Assembly (NCBI GenBank): GCA_016179185.1
Contig: JACORW010000023.1
Location: forward strand, 1-41,047
Direction: 5' to 3'
DNA length: 41,047 bases
Origin: Gammaproteobacteria bacterium
GTDB taxonomy: Bacteria > Pseudomonadota > Gammaproteobacteria > Eutrophobiales > Eutrophobiaceae
Every line of letters begins with the position of its first letter. Position 1 is the stretch's first letter. A program made the translations under genes and the position numbers. Below are positions 10,838-30,420 of the stretch, one piece after another. Under the pieces are notes generated by a model. The model had not been told where the DNA came from. It saw only the letters and a list, made by a program, of their open reading frames with translations, and made no database searches.

Positions 10838-12040
10838 ATGATTCAAGACACTCTTGATTTGAGGCACCTGCCGGAGGGGTTCTATGAAGACCCCTATCCG
10901 ATCTACCGCGCGCTGCGCGAACGGGAGCCGGTGCATCGCTGCGCCGACGGGACCTGGTTCCTGACCCGGCATGGGGACCTGCACCGGGTCTACCGGGACC
11001 CGCGCCTGTTCAGCTCCGACAAGAAGCAGTTGTTCAAGCCCCTGTTCGGCGACAGCCCGTTATACGAACACCACACCACGAGCCTGGTATTCAACGACCC
11101 GCCGCTGCACACCCATGTGCGCAAGGCCATCGGCGATGCGCTGGCTCCGCGCACGATCACCGCCCTGGAGCCCGGACTGCGGGCGCTGGTGGAGCGGTTG
11201 CTGGGCGAATTGCAGGCGCGCAGCGAATTCGATCTCATCGAGCACTTTGCCAGCGTCATTCCCGTGGAAGTGATCGGCAACCTGCTCCGGATCCCGCACG
11301 CCGATCGCGGCCGGTTGCGGCGCTGGGCCGGCGCCATCCTCGGCGCGCTCGAATTCGGACTGCCATCGGAAAAGAAGGCGCTCGGCAACGCCTGCGTCGT
11401 CGAATTCCTGGATTACCTGTGCGACTTTGTCGCCGAGCGGCGCGGGAACCTGAGCGACGACAGCGACGACATCCTGAGCCGCCTGATCCGCTGGGAATCC
11501 GATGGTTTCCGGCTCTCCGAGCAGCAGCTTTATCACCAGTGCATTTTCCTGTTGAACGCCGGCCACGAAACCACGACCAACCTCATCGGCAACGGCGTGC
11601 ACGCGCTGCTCTCGCACCCGGACGAACTGGCGCGCCTGCGCGCCGATCCCGGCCTCATCGGTTCCGCGGTGGAGGAGTTCCTGCGCTACGAGAGCCCGGT
11701 GCAGCTTGGCAACCGCGTCGCGACCGCGGACACCGAGATCGGCGGGGTCGGCATTGCCGCGGGCGCCGGGCTGACGCTGTGCATCGGCGCCGCCAACCGC
11801 GACCCGGCGGTGTACGCGGATCCCGATCGCCTGGATGTCGGGCGCAATCCGCACGATCATCTGGCCTTCGGCGGCGGCATTCACACCTGCGCCGGCCTGA
11901 ACGTGGCGCGGGTGGAGGCGCGCATCGCGATCCCGGCGTTGTTGCAACACTTCCCGGAACTACGCATCAACGGCACGCCGGTGCGCGATCGCCGGGCACG
12001 GTTCCGGGGCTTCCGATCCGTTCCCGTGGCAACGATGTAG
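10838..12040 (+). CDS. Cytochrome P450
   Basis: A soluble bacterial P450 of 400 residues. The I-helix oxygen-activation motif is AGHET (241-245), the K-helix ExxR is E280-R283, and the haem-binding loop is FGGGIHTCAG with C351 as the proximal thiolate. FNDPPLHTHVRK (85-96) is the usual C-helix region, with H91 and R95 near the haem propionates. It would hydroxylate or otherwise oxidise a small molecule using electrons from a ferredoxin and reductase, neither of which is encoded nearby. The start is taken as the ATG at 10838. A TTG at 10808 would extend the protein through the GGGGTCAGACCCC palindrome, which is unlikely. No strong ribosome site is seen. It is divergent from the AOR gene by 115 bp, and the substrate cannot be told. 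Confidence 0.92.
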   Translation: MIQDTLDLRHLPEGFYEDPYPIYRALREREPVHRCADGTWFLTRHGDLHRVYRDPRLFSSDKKQLFKPLFGDSPLYEHHTTSLVFNDPPLHTHVRKAIGDALAPRTITALEPGLRALVERLLGELQARSEFDLIEHFASVIPVEVIGNLLRIPHADRGRLRRWAGAILGALEFGLPSEKKALGNACVVEFLDYLCDFVAERRGNLSDDSDDILSRLIRWESDGFRLSEQQLYHQCIFLLNAGHETTTNLIGNGVHALLSHPDELARLRADPGLIGSAVEEFLRYESPVQLGNRVATADTEIGGVGIAAGAGLTLCIGAANRDPAVYADPDRLDVGRNPHDHLAFGGGIHTCAGLNVARVEARIAIPALLQHFPELRINGTPVRDRRARFRGFRSVPVATM

Positions 12041-12042
12041 AG

Positions 12043-12115
12043 GGCCGGCTGAAAGCCGGCCCCACACCAGGGGGAAGATGTCAGGGAGAATTTGTGGGGC
12101 CGGATTTATCCGGCC
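12043..12115. repeat. Extragenic palindrome pair (TGTGGGGCCGG family)
   Basis: GGCCGGCT/AGCCGGCC (12043-12061) followed by CCCCACA, and TTGTGGGGCCGGA/TCCGGCC (12092-12115) in the opposite orientation. They can form two separate hairpins or one long cruciform. The pair sits between the convergent P450 and DUF6494 genes. A partial third motif TGTGGGGCCG follows at about 12137. Confidence 0.85.
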
Positions 12116-12155
12116 GGGATGCTGACTGGCCCGAGTGTGGGGCCGAGGTTATCCC

Positions 12156-19144: not shown

Positions 19145-19146
19145 GG

Positions 19147-19384
19147 CCGGCTGAAAGCCGGCCCCACAGGAACCGGCCCCACAGAAACCGAACCCTTGTG
19201 GCGCCGGGTTTACCCTGGCCTGCGATCACCCGGCTGAAAGCCGGCCCCACAGTAACCGGCCCCACAGGAACCGAACCCTTGTGGCGCCGGGTTTACCCTG
19301 GCCTGCGATCACCCGGCTGAAAGCCGGCCCCACAGGAACCGGCCCCACAGAAACCGAACCCTTGTGGGGCCGGGTTTACCCGGC
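19147..19384. repeat. Three tandem 83-bp copies of an extragenic palindrome unit
   Basis: Units start at 19147, 19230 and 19313 with CCGGCTGAAAGCCGGCCCCA, exactly 83 bp apart. The third is slightly shorter. Each contains an inward CCCCACA arm, a spacer with two ACCGxxCCC words, and the opposite arm CTTGTGGxGCCGGGTTTACC. In the first two units the second arm is degenerate (GGCGCCGGGTTTACCCTGGCC), while the third is a clean palindrome. They fill the gap between the convergent protease and mgtE genes. Confidence 0.95.
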
Positions 19385-26004: not shown

Positions 26005-26111
26005 TGTGGGGCCGACTTTAGTCGGCCATCATCAATCCCGGCCGGGTAAACCCGGCCCCACAAGATTCACAACCAACCGAGTCACTCCTGTGGGGCCGGC
26101 TTCAGTCGGCC
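26005..26111. repeat. Extragenic palindromes between maiA and the enoyl-CoA hydratase gene
   Basis: Three arms of the same family: TGTGGGGCCGACTTTAGTCG at 26005, GGCCGGGTAAACCCGGCC followed by CCACAAG at about 26040-26063, and TGTGGGGCCGGCTTCAGTCG at 26089. The first and third differ from other copies by compensatory changes (GCCGAC/GTCGGC), which keep the stem. The block lies between two convergent genes. Confidence 0.9.
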
Positions 26112-26121
26112 ATCATTGCAG

Positions 26122-26898
26122 TCAATCGCCGTTGAATTCCGGTTTGCGCTTTTCCAGGAACGCCTCGATGCCTTCCCTGCAATCGGCGCTGTCTATGCAA
26201 AGGTGCTGCAGCGCCGCCTCCTCCCCGATGGCCTGGGCGTAGTCCCATCGCCCGGCGCCGCGCATCAATTGTTTGGATCGCGCCAACGCCAGCGGCGCGC
26301 GCCGGGACAGGTCATGGGCCCAGGTACGCGCTGCGTCCGCCACTTTGTCGTCCTGCGCCAGCCGGTTTGCCAGCCCCAATGACAGGCAGTCGGCGGCGGG
26401 CAACTTTTCACATTCGATCGCCATTTGATAGGCGCGCCGGTAGCCCAGCGCGCGGGCCAGCAGCCAGGTGGCGCCGCCGTCCGGAATCAGCCCGATATTG
26501 GCAAACGGAGACAGCAGGAAGGCGTTCTCTCCCATGACCACCAGATCGCAGACCAGGGCATAGGACAATCCGATCCCCGCGGCGAATCCATTAACGGCGG
26601 CGATCACCGGCTTGGCCATGTCACGGAGATTCAACAGGCTGGGCCCGTATTCCCCGTTCAGGGACCGTTCCACGTCGGCGCCGTTTCCGAATCCCGCCTT
26701 CAGGTCGGCGCCGGCGCTGAAACAGCGCCCCGCCCCGGTCAAGACGACGACGCGGACCGCGGCATCGTCCCGCGCCCGGTCCGTGGCTTCGATCAATTTG
26801 AGCCGCATGTCCTGGTTGAAGGCATTCAGCGACTCGGGACGATTCAGCGTGATGATGGCGATGCTTGCGTCGCGCTCGTACAGAATCGGTTCAGTCAT
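26122..26898 (-). CDS. Enoyl-CoA hydratase/isomerase family protein
   Basis: A 258-residue crotonase-fold protein. The two oxyanion-hole strands are SAGADLKAG and NGFAAGIGLSYALVCD. NIGLIPDGGATWLL (135-148) carries an Asp (D140) where PaaG-type isomerases have their catalytic Asp, rather than the Glu pair of classical hydratases. This suggests an isomerase or PaaG-like activity on an aromatic or unsaturated acyl-CoA (inference). It lies convergent with maiA and divergent from acetoacetate-CoA ligase. The neighbourhood favours a role in aromatic or fatty-acyl CoA catabolism. The ribosome site is weak, and MTEPILYERD is a usual N-terminus. Confidence 0.88.
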   Translation of the reverse strand: MTEPILYERDASIAIITLNRPESLNAFNQDMRLKLIEATDRARDDAAVRVVVLTGAGRCFSAGADLKAGFGNGADVERSLNGEYGPSLLNLRDMAKPVIAAVNGFAAGIGLSYALVCDLVVMGENAFLLSPFANIGLIPDGGATWLLARALGYRRAYQMAIECEKLPAADCLSLGLANRLAQDDKVADAARTWAHDLSRRAPLALARSKQLMRGAGRWDYAQAIGEEAALQHLCIDSADCREGIEAFLEKRKPEFNGD

Positions 26899-27011
26899 GG
26901 GGGCATCCAGTATTGTTGAGATCAGCCGATTACGGTTACGAATTTCCGCACAGATTCATAATCCCACAAAATCCTGCCCGCCGGATCATTCTCCGCCGAC
27001 CATCTTCCGCC

Positions 27012-27041
27012 TTGACAGCGGGCGGGCCGGACTTCTATATA
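27012..27041 (+). promoter_or_regulatory. Strong sigma70-like promoter abutting the aacS start codon
   Basis: TTGACA at 27012-27017 and TATATA at 27036-27041 are separated by 18 bp. Transcription should start near 27047-27049, two to four bases before the ATG at 27051. No ribosome-binding sequence precedes that ATG, so the mRNA may be leaderless. Confidence 0.6.
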
Positions 27042-27050
27042 CCTCGCCTC

Positions 27051-29012
27051 ATGAGCCTCCTGTGGCAGCCCTCCCCGCGTCACGTTGAATCCGCCCGGAT
27101 CACCGCGTTTCGCCGCCTCGCCGGCGAGCGCGCCGGGCGCGAGTTCACCGATTACGCCACACTGCATGCGTGGTCCATCTCGGATCGCGCGGCATTCTGG
27201 TCCGCGGTGTGGGATTTCTGCGGCGTCATCGCCTCGCAGCGCGGCGAGCGCGCGCTGGTGGACGGGGACCGCATGCCCGGCGCCCGCTTCTTTCCCGATG
27301 CGCGGCTGAATTTTGCCGAAAACCTGCTGCGCTGCCGCGACGATGGCGACGCGATCGTTTTTCAATGCGAGAACGGCACCGGCGCACGCCTGTCCTGGCG
27401 CGAGCTTCATGACGAGGTTTCGCGCACCGCGCAGTGTTTCCGTGCGGCCGGCATCCGGCCCGGCGACCGCATCGCCGCCATGCTGCCGAACATTCCGGAG
27501 GCAGTCGTCGCCGCGCTCGCCGCCGCCGCGGCCGGCGCCGTATGGTCCTCCTGCTCTCCGGACTTCGGCGCACAGGGCGTGCTCGATCGGTTCCGGCAGA
27601 TCGAGCCGAAATTGCTCATCACCTGCGACGGGTATTTTTACAACGGCCGGCAGATCGATACCATTGACAATGTGCGCGAGGTAGCGGCCGGGCTGCCGGA
27701 CGTGAAGCAAGTGCTGCTCGTGCCGTTTCTGCGCAATACCACCGGCGCGACACTGACTACCGGCGGCATCCCGCGTACACGGCTGCTGGCCGAAGCCGTG
27801 ACAAGATTCACCCCGGGCGAAATCGAGTTTAACCAGCTTCCGTTTTCGCATCCGCTGTACATCCTGTTCTCCAGCGGCACCACCGGGCTGCCCAAGTGCA
27901 TCGTGCACAGTGCCGGCGGAACCCTGCTCCAGCATCTGAAGGAACATCAACTGCATTTCGACGTCCGGCCCGATGACCGGGTGTTCTGGTTCACGACGCT
28001 CGGCTGGATGATGTGGAACTGGCTCGTGTCCGCGCTGGCCTCCGAGGCGAAAGTGCTGCTGTTCGACGGCGCGCCGACTTACCCGGACGGCAACGTGCTG
28101 TTCGACTTTGCCGATCAGGAACGCATGACACACCTGGGCGTATCGGCGAAGTACATCCAGTCCATCGAGAAGGCAGGCGTGACGCCGGCGCGGACCCACC
28201 AGTTGTCCGCGCTGCGGATCATCGGCTCCACCGGCTCCACGCTTTTGCCCGAGTCCTTCGATTACGTGTACCGCGACGTCAAGAAAGATGTGTGCCTGTC
28301 ATCGTTTTCCGGCGGCACGGACATCATCTCCGGGTTCGTCGGCGGCGGTCCCGCGCTGCCGGTGCACCGCGGCGAGATCCAGGCCCGGACGCTGGGCATG
28401 GCCGTGGAGATCTGGAACGATGCCGGAAAGAAATTGATCGGAGAGAAGGGCGAGCTGGTCTGCACGCGCGCCTTCCCGTCCATGCCCATCGGCTTCTGGA
28501 ATGACGGCGACGGCGCGCGCTATCGCGCCGCGTACTTCGAGAAATTTCCCGGCGTCTGGGCCCACGGCGATTACGCCGAGGAAACGCCCGATGGCGGATA
28601 CATTATATATGGGCGGTCCGACGCCACCCTGAACCCCGGCGGCGTACGCATCGGCACGGCGGAGCTGTACCGGCAGGTGGAACGATTCGAAGAAGTGGTG
28701 GAAAGCGTAGCCGTCGGCCAGGAGTGGGACGGCGACACGCGCATCGTGCTGTTCGTCGTGTTGCGGGACGGCAGGACGCTGGACGAGGGCCTGGTCGCGC
28801 GCTTGAAAGCGCAGATCCGCGACGGCGCCAGTCCGCGGCACGTGCCGGCGAAGATCCTGCAAGTCGCGGAAATCCCCCGCACGCGCAACGGCAAGATCAC
28901 CGAACTTGCGATCCGCGACGTCGTGCACGGGCGGCCGGTGACGAACGCCGAGGCGCTGGCGAATCCCCAGGCGCTGGAACATTTCCGCGGCCGGGCGGAA
29001 CTGCAGACCTGA
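27051..29012 (+). CDS. aacS: Acetoacetate-CoA ligase
   Basis: A 653-residue adenylate-forming enzyme with the acetoacetyl-CoA synthetase layout. The N-terminal ACS-type domain has WSAVWDFCGV and PGARFFPDARLNFAENLL. The P-loop is YILFSSGTTGLPKCIVH, followed by FWFTTLGWMMWNWLVSAL and SGGTDIISGFVGG. The hinge is YIIYGRSDATLNPGGVRIG, and the C-terminal acetylation-prone lysine lies in PRTRNGKITELAI. It makes acetoacetyl-CoA from acetoacetate, ATP and CoA, and thereby consumes the acetoacetate released by FahA a few genes away. The ATG at 27051 matches the family N-terminus (MSLLWQPSP). The open frame upstream to 26865 lacks homology. It probably has its own promoter. Confidence 0.95.
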   Translation: MSLLWQPSPRHVESARITAFRRLAGERAGREFTDYATLHAWSISDRAAFWSAVWDFCGVIASQRGERALVDGDRMPGARFFPDARLNFAENLLRCRDDGDAIVFQCENGTGARLSWRELHDEVSRTAQCFRAAGIRPGDRIAAMLPNIPEAVVAALAAAAAGAVWSSCSPDFGAQGVLDRFRQIEPKLLITCDGYFYNGRQIDTIDNVREVAAGLPDVKQVLLVPFLRNTTGATLTTGGIPRTRLLAEAVTRFTPGEIEFNQLPFSHPLYILFSSGTTGLPKCIVHSAGGTLLQHLKEHQLHFDVRPDDRVFWFTTLGWMMWNWLVSALASEAKVLLFDGAPTYPDGNVLFDFADQERMTHLGVSAKYIQSIEKAGVTPARTHQLSALRIIGSTGSTLLPESFDYVYRDVKKDVCLSSFSGGTDIISGFVGGGPALPVHRGEIQARTLGMAVEIWNDAGKKLIGEKGELVCTRAFPSMPIGFWNDGDGARYRAAYFEKFPGVWAHGDYAEETPDGGYIIYGRSDATLNPGGVRIGTAELYRQVERFEEVVESVAVGQEWDGDTRIVLFVVLRDGRTLDEGLVARLKAQIRDGASPRHVPAKILQVAEIPRTRNGKITELAIRDVVHGRPVTNAEALANPQALEHFRGRAELQT

Positions 29013-29027
29013 ATCCGCGAAGCACCC

Positions 29028-29303
29028 TTGTGGGGCCGGGCCGCTCCGGACGTCCTGTCCTCGCGCGGCATACCCCACGTCCTATGGGTAGCCGCTCCGG
29101 ACATCCTGTCCTCGGCTTTGGCTCCTGCGTCGCCCTACCGCCTACATCCATGTAGGCGTCTCGCGGCATTTCCCACGTCCTGTGGGTCGTTTACCCGGCC
29201 GCGATGCTGATGAATTTCAGATACTGATGGCCGGCTGAAGCAGGCCCCACAAGAACTGGAAAGTGAAGGCGAACTTGTGGGGCCGGGTTTACCCGGCCGC
29301 GAT
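29028..29303. repeat. Extragenic palindrome region, with one copy interrupted
   Basis: CTTGTGGGGCCGGG (to 29040) and TTTACCCGGCCGCGATG (from 29190) are the two halves of one family member, now 149 bp apart. The intact copy at 29275-29303 reads CTTGTGGGGCCGGG directly followed by TTTACCCGGCCGCGATG. Between them, at 29229-29252, is GGCCGGCTGAAGCAGGCC followed by CCACAA, a member in the opposite direction. The block lies between aacS and the WYL gene. Confidence 0.88.
29041..29189. mobile_element. 149-bp hairpin-array element inserted in a palindrome
   Basis: The insert carries two direct repeats (CCGCTCCGGAC at 29041 and 29092) and at least five small hairpins whose loops follow RTCCW. They are GGAC-GTCCT-GTCC (29048-29060), CCCA around GTCCT (29074-29088), GGAC-ATCCT-GTCC (29099-29111), CGCCTAC-ATCCAT-GTAGGCG (29139-29158) and CCCAC-GTCCT-GTGGG (29172-29186). 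It has no ORF and no clear target-site duplication. It resembles non-coding extragenic repeat arrays rather than an insertion sequence. Confidence 0.6.
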
Positions 29304-29349
29304 GCGGCCTTGTACCCCGATCCGGCGTAAATTTGACTACACTTGCGCG

Positions 29350-30420
29350 ATGGATCGCTTCGATCGGATCTTTGCCCTGCACCGGATCCTCGCCGGGCGG
29401 CGCACGCCCATCTCCCGGCAGGAGTTGCAGGAAAAACTGGAATGCTCCCGCGCTACCATCGGTCGGCTCATCGAAGACATGCGTGCTTTCCTGAGCGCGC
29501 CCATCGAATACGACCGCGAGCACAACGGCTACCGCTACAACCACGCCGAAGCGGAGATGTACGAACTCCCCGGCCTGTGGCTGAATTCCTCCGAACTCTT
29601 CGCCCTGCTCGTCTCGCAGAAACTGCTCGCCGAGGTACAGCCGGGCCTGCTCGCGCCGCAGCTCGACCCCCTGCGGGAGCGCATCCACGGCATCCTGCGC
29701 ACCCGCCGCGTCGGACATCCACAGACGGAACGGCGCATCCGTATCCTGCAGATGGCGGCGCGCCCGGCCGACCTGGAGAAGTTCCAGAAGATCGCCACTG
29801 CCCTGCTGGACCGCAGGCAACTGCACATCTTCTACCGCGGCCGGGCGCGGGATGAATTTTCCGAACGCGACGTTTCGCCGCAGCGGTTGGTCTACTACCG
29901 TGACAACTGGTACCTGGACGCCTGGTGCCACTGGCGCCGGGGGCTGCGCAGTTTCTCCGTGGATCGGATGGAACCGCGCTACGTTTCGGAAGATCCTGCG
30001 CGCGAAGTTGACGAGGAGTCGCTCGAAGCGCATTACACCGCGGCTTACGGCATCTTCGCCGGCCCCGCCGATAAGACGGCGATCCTGCGTTTCAGTTCGA
30101 AGGCGGCCAAGTGGGTCGCCGACGAACATTGGCATTCAAAGCAGGCGGGAAAGATGCTGCCTTCCGGTGAATACGAATTGCGCGTGCCCTACGGCAATCC
30201 CACGGAACTCATCATGGACATCCTGAAATACGGCGAGCGCGTGGAAGTCATGGCGCCGGCGGCGCTGCGGCGCGAAGTGGCGCGGCGACTGCGGGAGGCG
30301 GCGGAGGGCTACCGATCAGTTAAGTTGACCGTGAGCCCAAAAGTACACAGGGGTCAGAGCTTCAGCTCTGACCCCAATCCGACGATTATCAAACCAGGCA
30401 AGGCGGCAGGCACGTCGTGA
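29350..30420 (+). CDS. WYL-domain transcriptional regulator (YafY/DeoR type)
   Basis: A 356-residue regulator. An N-terminal winged helix (MDRFDRIFALHRILAGRR, then ISRQELQEKLECSRATIGRLIEDMR) is followed by the WYL domain (FYRGRARDEFSERDVSPQRLVYYRDNWYLDAWCHWRRGLRSFSVDRM). A WCX-like C-terminal dimerisation/ligand region follows, with LRVPYGNPTELIMDILKYGERVEVMAP. WYL proteins bind nucleic acids or nucleotides and often control defence or DNA-damage genes. The ATG at 29350 gives the family N-terminus. An upstream start would run through a palindrome. The last 34 residues after LREAAEGY are encoded by a repeat hairpin and look like a non-native tail. Its target is unknown, and the adjacent stretch is accessory. 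Confidence 0.9.
   Translation: MDRFDRIFALHRILAGRRTPISRQELQEKLECSRATIGRLIEDMRAFLSAPIEYDREHNGYRYNHAEAEMYELPGLWLNSSELFALLVSQKLLAEVQPGLLAPQLDPLRERIHGILRTRRVGHPQTERRIRILQMAARPADLEKFQKIATALLDRRQLHIFYRGRARDEFSERDVSPQRLVYYRDNWYLDAWCHWRRGLRSFSVDRMEPRYVSEDPAREVDEESLEAHYTAAYGIFAGPADKTAILRFSSKAAKWVADEHWHSKQAGKMLPSGEYELRVPYGNPTELIMDILKYGERVEVMAPAALRREVARRLREAAEGYRSVKLTVSPKVHRGQSFSSDPNPTIIKPGKAAGTS
30350..30375. repeat. GGGGTCAGAGC hairpin inside the WYL gene 3' end
   Basis: GGGGTCAGAGC (30350-30360), loop TTCA and GCTCTGACCCC (30365-30375) form a perfect 11-bp stem. It shares its GGGGTCAGA core with the palindrome at 10810. It lies within the last 70 bases of the WYL reading frame. Confidence 0.85.

Follow-up and report, generated by a model that had tools for sequence, protein, structure and literature searches.

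Nested mobile modules with GGA-tipped hairpins in Gammaproteobacteria and their possible tie to CsrA/RsmA

Palindromic repeats, GGA hairpins and the locus at hand

Short, non-coding, palindromic repeats of the REP, BIME, REPIN and MITE types lie between genes, in tens of copies per genome and with a mosaic make-up, and in the Rickettsia palindromic elements (RPE) a small palindromic unit is inserted in frame in coding genes. The modules that we describe here have much in common with the first group, being short, non-coding, palindromic, intergenic, multi-copy and mosaic, but they differ from it in combining variable stems with an invariant loop and in the nested insertion of units of 46-51 bp. 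With RPE they share in-frame palindromic insertion, here in the gene pglX, where 48 bp make 16 codons, but they are shorter, of other sequence, mostly intergenic and found in Gammaproteobacteria. Their host palindromes, such as ATTCCCGCG..GCGGGAAT, presumably resemble neisserial dRS3, and the intergenic mosaic elements of Neisseria, in which dRS3 palindromes go with RS units, are likewise mosaics of small repeats; in our case, by contrast, the unit splits the palindrome and bears GGA-tip hairpins. A rather different likeness is to the sRNAs of the CsrB/CsrC/RsmX/Y/Z type, strings of GGA hairpins that sequester CsrA/RsmA, and it consists in several GGA-loop hairpins, a pair of sites at bridging distance and a SELEX-like tip. 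Unlike a CsrB/RsmZ-type sRNA gene, the modules are dispersed mobile copies inside other repeats and have no Rfam match, and their dispersal argues against a single sRNA locus. Our literature search on CsrA/RsmA with palindromic repeats, transposable elements or decoys, and on the module strings, found no description in the journals within its scope, which took in few of the subscription titles.

The source genome amounts to 2.58 Mb in 115 contigs and is 86% complete, and the window, by which we mean the whole stretch of 41,047 nucleotides that was analysed, is its contig C104. A preliminary description of this DNA had proposed that a palindrome found intact nearby is split here by a non-coding insert of 149 bp, and direct reading confirms it. 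The insert (29041-29189) lies between an AMP-binding, acyl-CoA synthetase-like gene (26865-29012) and a WYL-domain gene (29350-30420), and it separates the halves CTTGTGGGGCCGGG and TTTACCCGGCC of a REP-type palindrome, which are contiguous at 29274-29305 in a plus-strand copy that reads directly as the unoccupied form. The left half, also on the plus strand (CTTGTGGGGCCGGG, 29027-29040, family D9), has its intact counterpart at 29274-29287, and the right half on the same strand (TTTACCCGGCCGCGATGC, 29190-29207) belongs to family D5. For the palindrome family, this intact copy counters the view that the outer halves had never been contiguous; an orthologous empty site for the window copy itself was sought and none was found, and the WYL neighbour had no match in the one genome of the same genus. 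More copies of the host palindrome family occur in the window at 12040-12122, 19145-19384, 26035-26115 and 29229-29310, and near the end of the WYL gene (30350-30375) there is a perfect 12-bp inverted repeat, GGGGTCAGAGCT/AGCTCTGACCCC, with a two-base centre.

Five small hairpins with a shared RTCCW-type loop had been reported within the insert, and all five are where they were said to be (29048-29060, 29074-29088, 29099-29111, 29139-29158 and 29172-29186), together with a short sixth, GC-AGGA-GC, on the minus strand at about 29120-29127; they are, however, parts of a nest of two kinds of module rather than five free units. Read on the minus strand, the insert consists of a first copy of a 51-nt core unit C with the 47-nt module A nested in it, and then a second C (51+51+47 = 149). 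This second copy occupies 29041-29091 on the minus or GGA strand, with hairpins CCCATAGGACGTGGG and GGACAGGACGTCC, and is recognised from dispersed C units in the source genome. The first is divided, on the minus strand too, into a 3' part at 29092-29111 (hairpin GGACAGGATGTCC), identified from uninterrupted C units elsewhere in the genome, and a 5' part at 29159-29189 (hairpin CCCACAGGACGTGGG), placed by direct reading and by comparison with unit C. Between the two parts, on the same strand, lies module A (29112-29158; CGCCTACATGGATGTAGGCGGTAGGGCGACGCAGGAGCCAAAGCCGA), whose two GGA sites are 21 nt apart and which is backed by its row in alignment A2 (L001:1592-1638) and by covariation. The 51 nt of unit C read C[GT]ACCCACAGGA..GGACAGGATGTCCGGAGCGG, and A interrupts them after GCCGCGAGA.

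That all this is beyond chance follows from the repetition of the insert elsewhere in the genome, where its best other copy has an E value of 1.1e-64, and from the folding of both its strands, which is better than that of 200 shuffles (z -3.2 and -3.3). Unit C occurs without A in the source genome, for example at L010 and L012, and with A in the sister genome G001, where a module B of a layout similar to A sits inside A in its turn (e.g. L064-L067 and L070), a case of nesting by serial insertion. The array is made up of non-autonomous mini mobile elements nested in one another, each about 46-51 bp long and with two GGA-tipped hairpins on one strand.

Spread and mobility of the modules

Further arrays are to be found both in the source genome and among its relatives, which is where the preliminary description had thought to look. 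A query of 310 bases around the insert gives 106 matches in the source genome, REP parts counted in, and the array part is present there at about 20 distinct places; a match is found in 20 of the 40 genomes searched, the source genome and relatives together. Further afield, the exact 26-base pattern of module A picks out 47 stretches when 84,980 species genomes are searched, and the record titles include Pseudomonas, Pseudoalteromonas, Vreelandella, Thiohalomonas, Acidiferrobacteraceae and Ectothiorhodospiraceae. A 17-base pattern from the tail of A, which gives chance matches too and fetched some loci without a module hairpin, is found in 22 of 369 genomes of the class and 15 of 398 of the phylum (reversed-pattern controls, 2 of 369 and 2 of 398), and it matches 45 times in the single-contig genome G562. 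Outside Gammaproteobacteria we have one family of the phylum (f207), by pattern match only, and the phage collection that we searched gave no match. Mobile, nested modules of 46-51 bp with two GGA hairpins are spread over the Gammaproteobacteria, and in module A their structure is conserved.

At the junctions of module A, 107 of 117 left flanks have A as their last base, and 93 of 117 right flanks start with G. The host sequences are widely different, and with the module taken out many of them look like ordinary intergenic palindromes; insertion into other palindromes, as proposed for the window, is a recurrent event. The BREX methylase gene pglX provides both filled and empty alleles. It is filled in the Moellerella plasmid NZ_CP093250.1 (L282:3004-3051), in a Salmonella plasmid and in two E. 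coli chromosomes (of 5426 genomes), and it is empty in three other aligned homologues, from E. coli, Klebsiella michiganensis and Salmonella Saintpaul, in which exactly 48 bp are absent by comparison with the Moellerella gene; the copy of Salmonella Panama has an extra deletion upstream. The target duplication is 0-2 bp, depending on how a repeated GA is assigned, and the module sits in frame, leaving the reading frame uninterrupted. A non-autonomous mobile element is recognised by alleles with and without it and by precise edges, as we have them in pglX and at the junctions, and precise edges together with a clean 48-bp empty site tell us that module A moves without a gene of its own. An element copied or moved in just this manner had been suggested at the outset, and the dispersed non-coding copies speak for it as well; the empty sites by which the suggestion was to be judged exist both as intact palindrome copies and as the empty pglX alleles.

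Where do the modules land? A spanning stem of at least 6 bp is present at 17 of 110 junctions; moving the point 4 nt upstream raises this to 31 of 110, and points at least 14 nt away give 1-8 of 110, which makes insertion at hairpin tips a preference that is common and not universal. For unit C, a flank stem of at least 6 occurs at 19 of 40 junctions as against 25% with shuffled partners, a weak control, since one REP family supplies many of the hosts, and the 40 include some internal tandem junctions. In most insertions the module follows an A that belongs to the loop of a small hairpin or lies immediately 3' of it, within intergenic repeats; at times the modules enter one another or genes. 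We identified no nuclease or transposase that goes with the modules; the source genome has two matches to Y1 transposases, and the modules would presumably be moved in trans.

A constant tip on changing stems

Each RTCCW loop of the insert corresponds to WGGAY on the minus strand, or to CA(N)GGA(N)G if the closing pair is included. In the 107 distinct A modules that we aligned, the loop A is present 107 times and the GGA is intact in 105, the closing pair is mostly C-G, and the positions on either side of the GGA are free (T73 G24 A7 C3 before it, T92 C9 A6 after it). With compensatory pairs in their stems, these modules bear out the preliminary claim of constant loops on changing stems. Its companion, that the RTCCW loop is a recognition element, survives in part: the loop is constant, but the informative form is on the opposite strand, where the tip (CANGGANG) takes the form of a Csr/Rsm ligand, and this makes an RNA-binding protein at least as likely a reader as a nuclease or transposase.

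The stems of module A covary. Paired cells make up 91.2% (shuffle mean 81.8), a percentage raised by the dropping of rows with fewer than four of the five inner stem pairs before the tip and covariation counts. Double changes occur in 7 of the 11 pairs and in 102 cells, compared with a shuffle mean of 26.6 and with 0 of 500 shuffles as high. On all five measures the covariation exceeds all 500 shuffles, which do not keep relatedness, and it collapses when the partner is slid by 1-3 columns. Pair 6-15 is a good illustration (AU 46, GC 35, CG 23, GU 2), and compensatory changes exchange GC for UA in the second, small hairpin, which surrounds the second GGA; the conservation of that second GGA is biased, because most loci were fetched by patterns or a query containing GCAGGA, and the first GGA lies outside those patterns. 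In columns 2-3 with 18-19 of alignment A2, a tandem G-A/A-G mismatch replaces G-C/C-G in 42 of the 107 modules, and the module A of the window (29112-29158) has the G-C/C-G form of these outer pairs.

The tip can also be looked for genome-wide. In a 387-kb sample of the source genome, drawn mostly from contigs with matches to the insert query, the hexaloop A-N-GGA-N on a stem of at least 5 occurs in 34 hairpins and ranks first of 256 classes (mean 6.25); under the tighter pattern CA(N)XYZ(N)G the core GGA accounts for 40 hairpins, 7 of which are array-type, the next core for 16 and the mean is 4.6. The 24 distinct hexaloop sequences of this sample sit on many unrelated stems, the longest of them 15 bp. 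The same A-N-GGA-N class ranks third in G562 (24 of 1678) and 34th in the unbiased part of genome G011, where sorting the hairpin loops by exact loop sequence gave no enrichment of GGA loops either. The effect is therefore strong in the source genome, moderate in G562 and not seen in G011 beyond its modules, and the flat result in G011 means that the signal is not universal among carriers. At L340:16330-16820 (source contig C13), five different GGA-tip hairpins stand within about 500 bp, one of them with a 15-bp stem.

As to which strand acts, G.U pairs outnumber A.C on the GGA strand by 16 to 7 (p 0.047), or by 15 to 7 if distinct hairpins are counted (p 0.067), a weak excess that is no more than suggestive. 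The figures become 9 and 4 (p 0.13) when stem positions 2-3 are left out and were 22 and 6 in an earlier, looser set, and both strands fold equally well.

The tip as a candidate CsrA/RsmA ligand, and its competitors

According to PMC7652899, the SELEX consensus for CsrA is RUACARGGAUGU, with ACA and GGA fully conserved and the GGA in a hairpin loop; most SELEX loops have six nt, AC being paired with GU, and the CsrA dimer bridges two sites that are 10-63 nt apart, with an optimum above 18. In the module tip, too, a hairpin loop holds the GGA, and the consensus ACANGGANGU is followed. Set against these data, the GGA-to-GGA spacing counted from the sequence, 21 nt in A and 24 nt in C, is within the range of the dimer, the hairpin GGGTACAGGGATGTACCC of module B contains the SELEX consensus letter for letter, and the module stems are longer than those of the usual SELEX hairpins. 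The source genome has one csrA, with the leucine 4 and arginine 44 that PMC7652899 highlights, and a csrA is present in 52 of the 55 genomes examined, including all 42 with a completeness of 90% or more and a contamination of no more than 5%; a match is absent in three carriers, G022, G123 and G628, which are 83, 73 and 68% complete. Of course, csrA is also common in genomes without modules, and since 313 of 369 genomes of the class have it, co-occurrence is not discriminating: the reading requires csrA, but its presence is not evidence of a link. Rfam searches of the whole window at the gathering threshold, and of 28950-29330 at a relaxed threshold, returned nothing relevant and no CsrB/RsmZ on the array; a PrrB_RsmZ match at E 5 falls outside it.

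Our reading of the tip is that it may be a CsrA/RsmA ligand acting as RNA, and we would give this about an even chance. Judged from the sequence, the transcribed GGA strand would bind CsrA/RsmA, which would preserve the six-base loop with its tip C-A-N-GGA-N-G on changing stems, and a single CsrA dimer would bridge both GGA sites of a module. Docking sites would in this way become part of transcripts that read through from neighbouring genes, and would recruit or titrate CsrA. The explanation as a whole, mobile mini-elements whose tip would be kept for CsrA/RsmA binding, seems to us evenly poised between right and wrong. A bolder version would be a transposable CsrA sponge, in which mobile two-site platforms set the level of free regulator through their copy load and read-through, rewire it as copies move, and in which unrelated palindromic elements of Gammaproteobacteria converged on the tip; we offer it tentatively, as a possibility with the balance against it.

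The main competitor, close to the recognition element of the preliminary description, holds that a mobilising enzyme recognises the tip on a folded single-stranded DNA or RNA intermediate of the GGA strand, so that the likeness to CsrA sites would be coincidental. The elements are mobile and insert with a duplication of 0-2 bp, insertion favours hairpins, at their loop or 3' side, GGA itself is the most frequent triplet of the left flank (30 of 110), two junctions lie in the GGA tips of other modules (L094 and L242), and orientation is mostly indifferent to genes, all of which suits such an enzyme. Against it, we came upon no associated transposase, and an accidental match to an independent consensus of 12 bases is hard to get. 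Y1 elements of the IS200/IS605 type are known for an orientation bias towards the lagging strand of replication, and in G562, one genome, the 45 copies show no significant bias of this kind (18 leading versus 27 lagging by GC skew). On balance, we think this explanation a real but rather unlikely one.

Gene orientation, for which we relied on the calls of a simple in-house caller, bears on the other two explanations. In the source genome and G001, with duplicates and arrays without both called neighbours left out, 12 arrays are tandem sense, 11 antisense, 13 convergent and 1 divergent. This avoidance of divergent promoters is what passive repeats display, and with the relatedness of the copies it would fit ordinary BIME- or REP-like repeats whose stems are perfected by quasi-palindrome correction and gene conversion and whose tip is a functionless founder effect; yet a founder effect does not explain one tip on unrelated stems, nor free N positions beside an invariant A and GGA across families of the class, and we consider it improbable. 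Other loci, which partly overlap the first tally because some are G001 contigs under public names, divide into 20 sense, 10 antisense, 8 convergent and 6 divergent. This weak sense excess (20:10, p 0.10), the sense orientation of all 4 GGA-tip hairpins that lie within called genes in the source sample, and the match to the CsrA consensus could be taken for classical cis-regulatory CsrA sites, kept at particular genes in sense orientation. The remaining samples have no sense bias, however: the 30 loci of G562 comprise 5 sense, 5 antisense, 11 convergent and 4 divergent, with 3 inside genes and 2 without both neighbours, and the other GGA-tip hairpins of the source sample stand at 7:7. Since the samples do not agree on a sense bias, a point against fixed cis-regulation, and since closely similar elements adjoin unrelated genes, we find this explanation very improbable indeed.

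If the tip is a CsrA/RsmA ligand, then selfish palindromic DNA spreads sites for a major post-transcriptional regulator of Gammaproteobacteria, which would be the RNA counterpart of transposons that spread transcription-factor sites and would explain why one loop is kept on short palindromes with different stems. The CsrA-ligand reading has the further attraction of being directly testable in laboratory strains. Should the tip be read by a mobilising enzyme instead, we would be dealing with a new way to move 50 bp of DNA with almost no target duplication.

Several copies are found in larger surroundings. In G562, L295:891-1735 and eight similar loci share a non-coding repeat that reaches about 830 bp; its two arms hold module A and further hairpins with the CANGGANG tip, in both orientations. 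Around 1450-1700 of L019 (source contig C6), a copy of the array lies within a larger inverted repeat with ends CAGGTTGATGCAAAAC, a carrier that is MITE-like and distinct from REP. On the Catenovulum plasmid NZ_CP109967.1 (L283:2002-3370), module A is about 280 bp past the 3' end of an annotated IS110-family transposase gene, and at a Vreelandella locus (L112) the module sits in non-coding sequence similar to the Catenovulum context.
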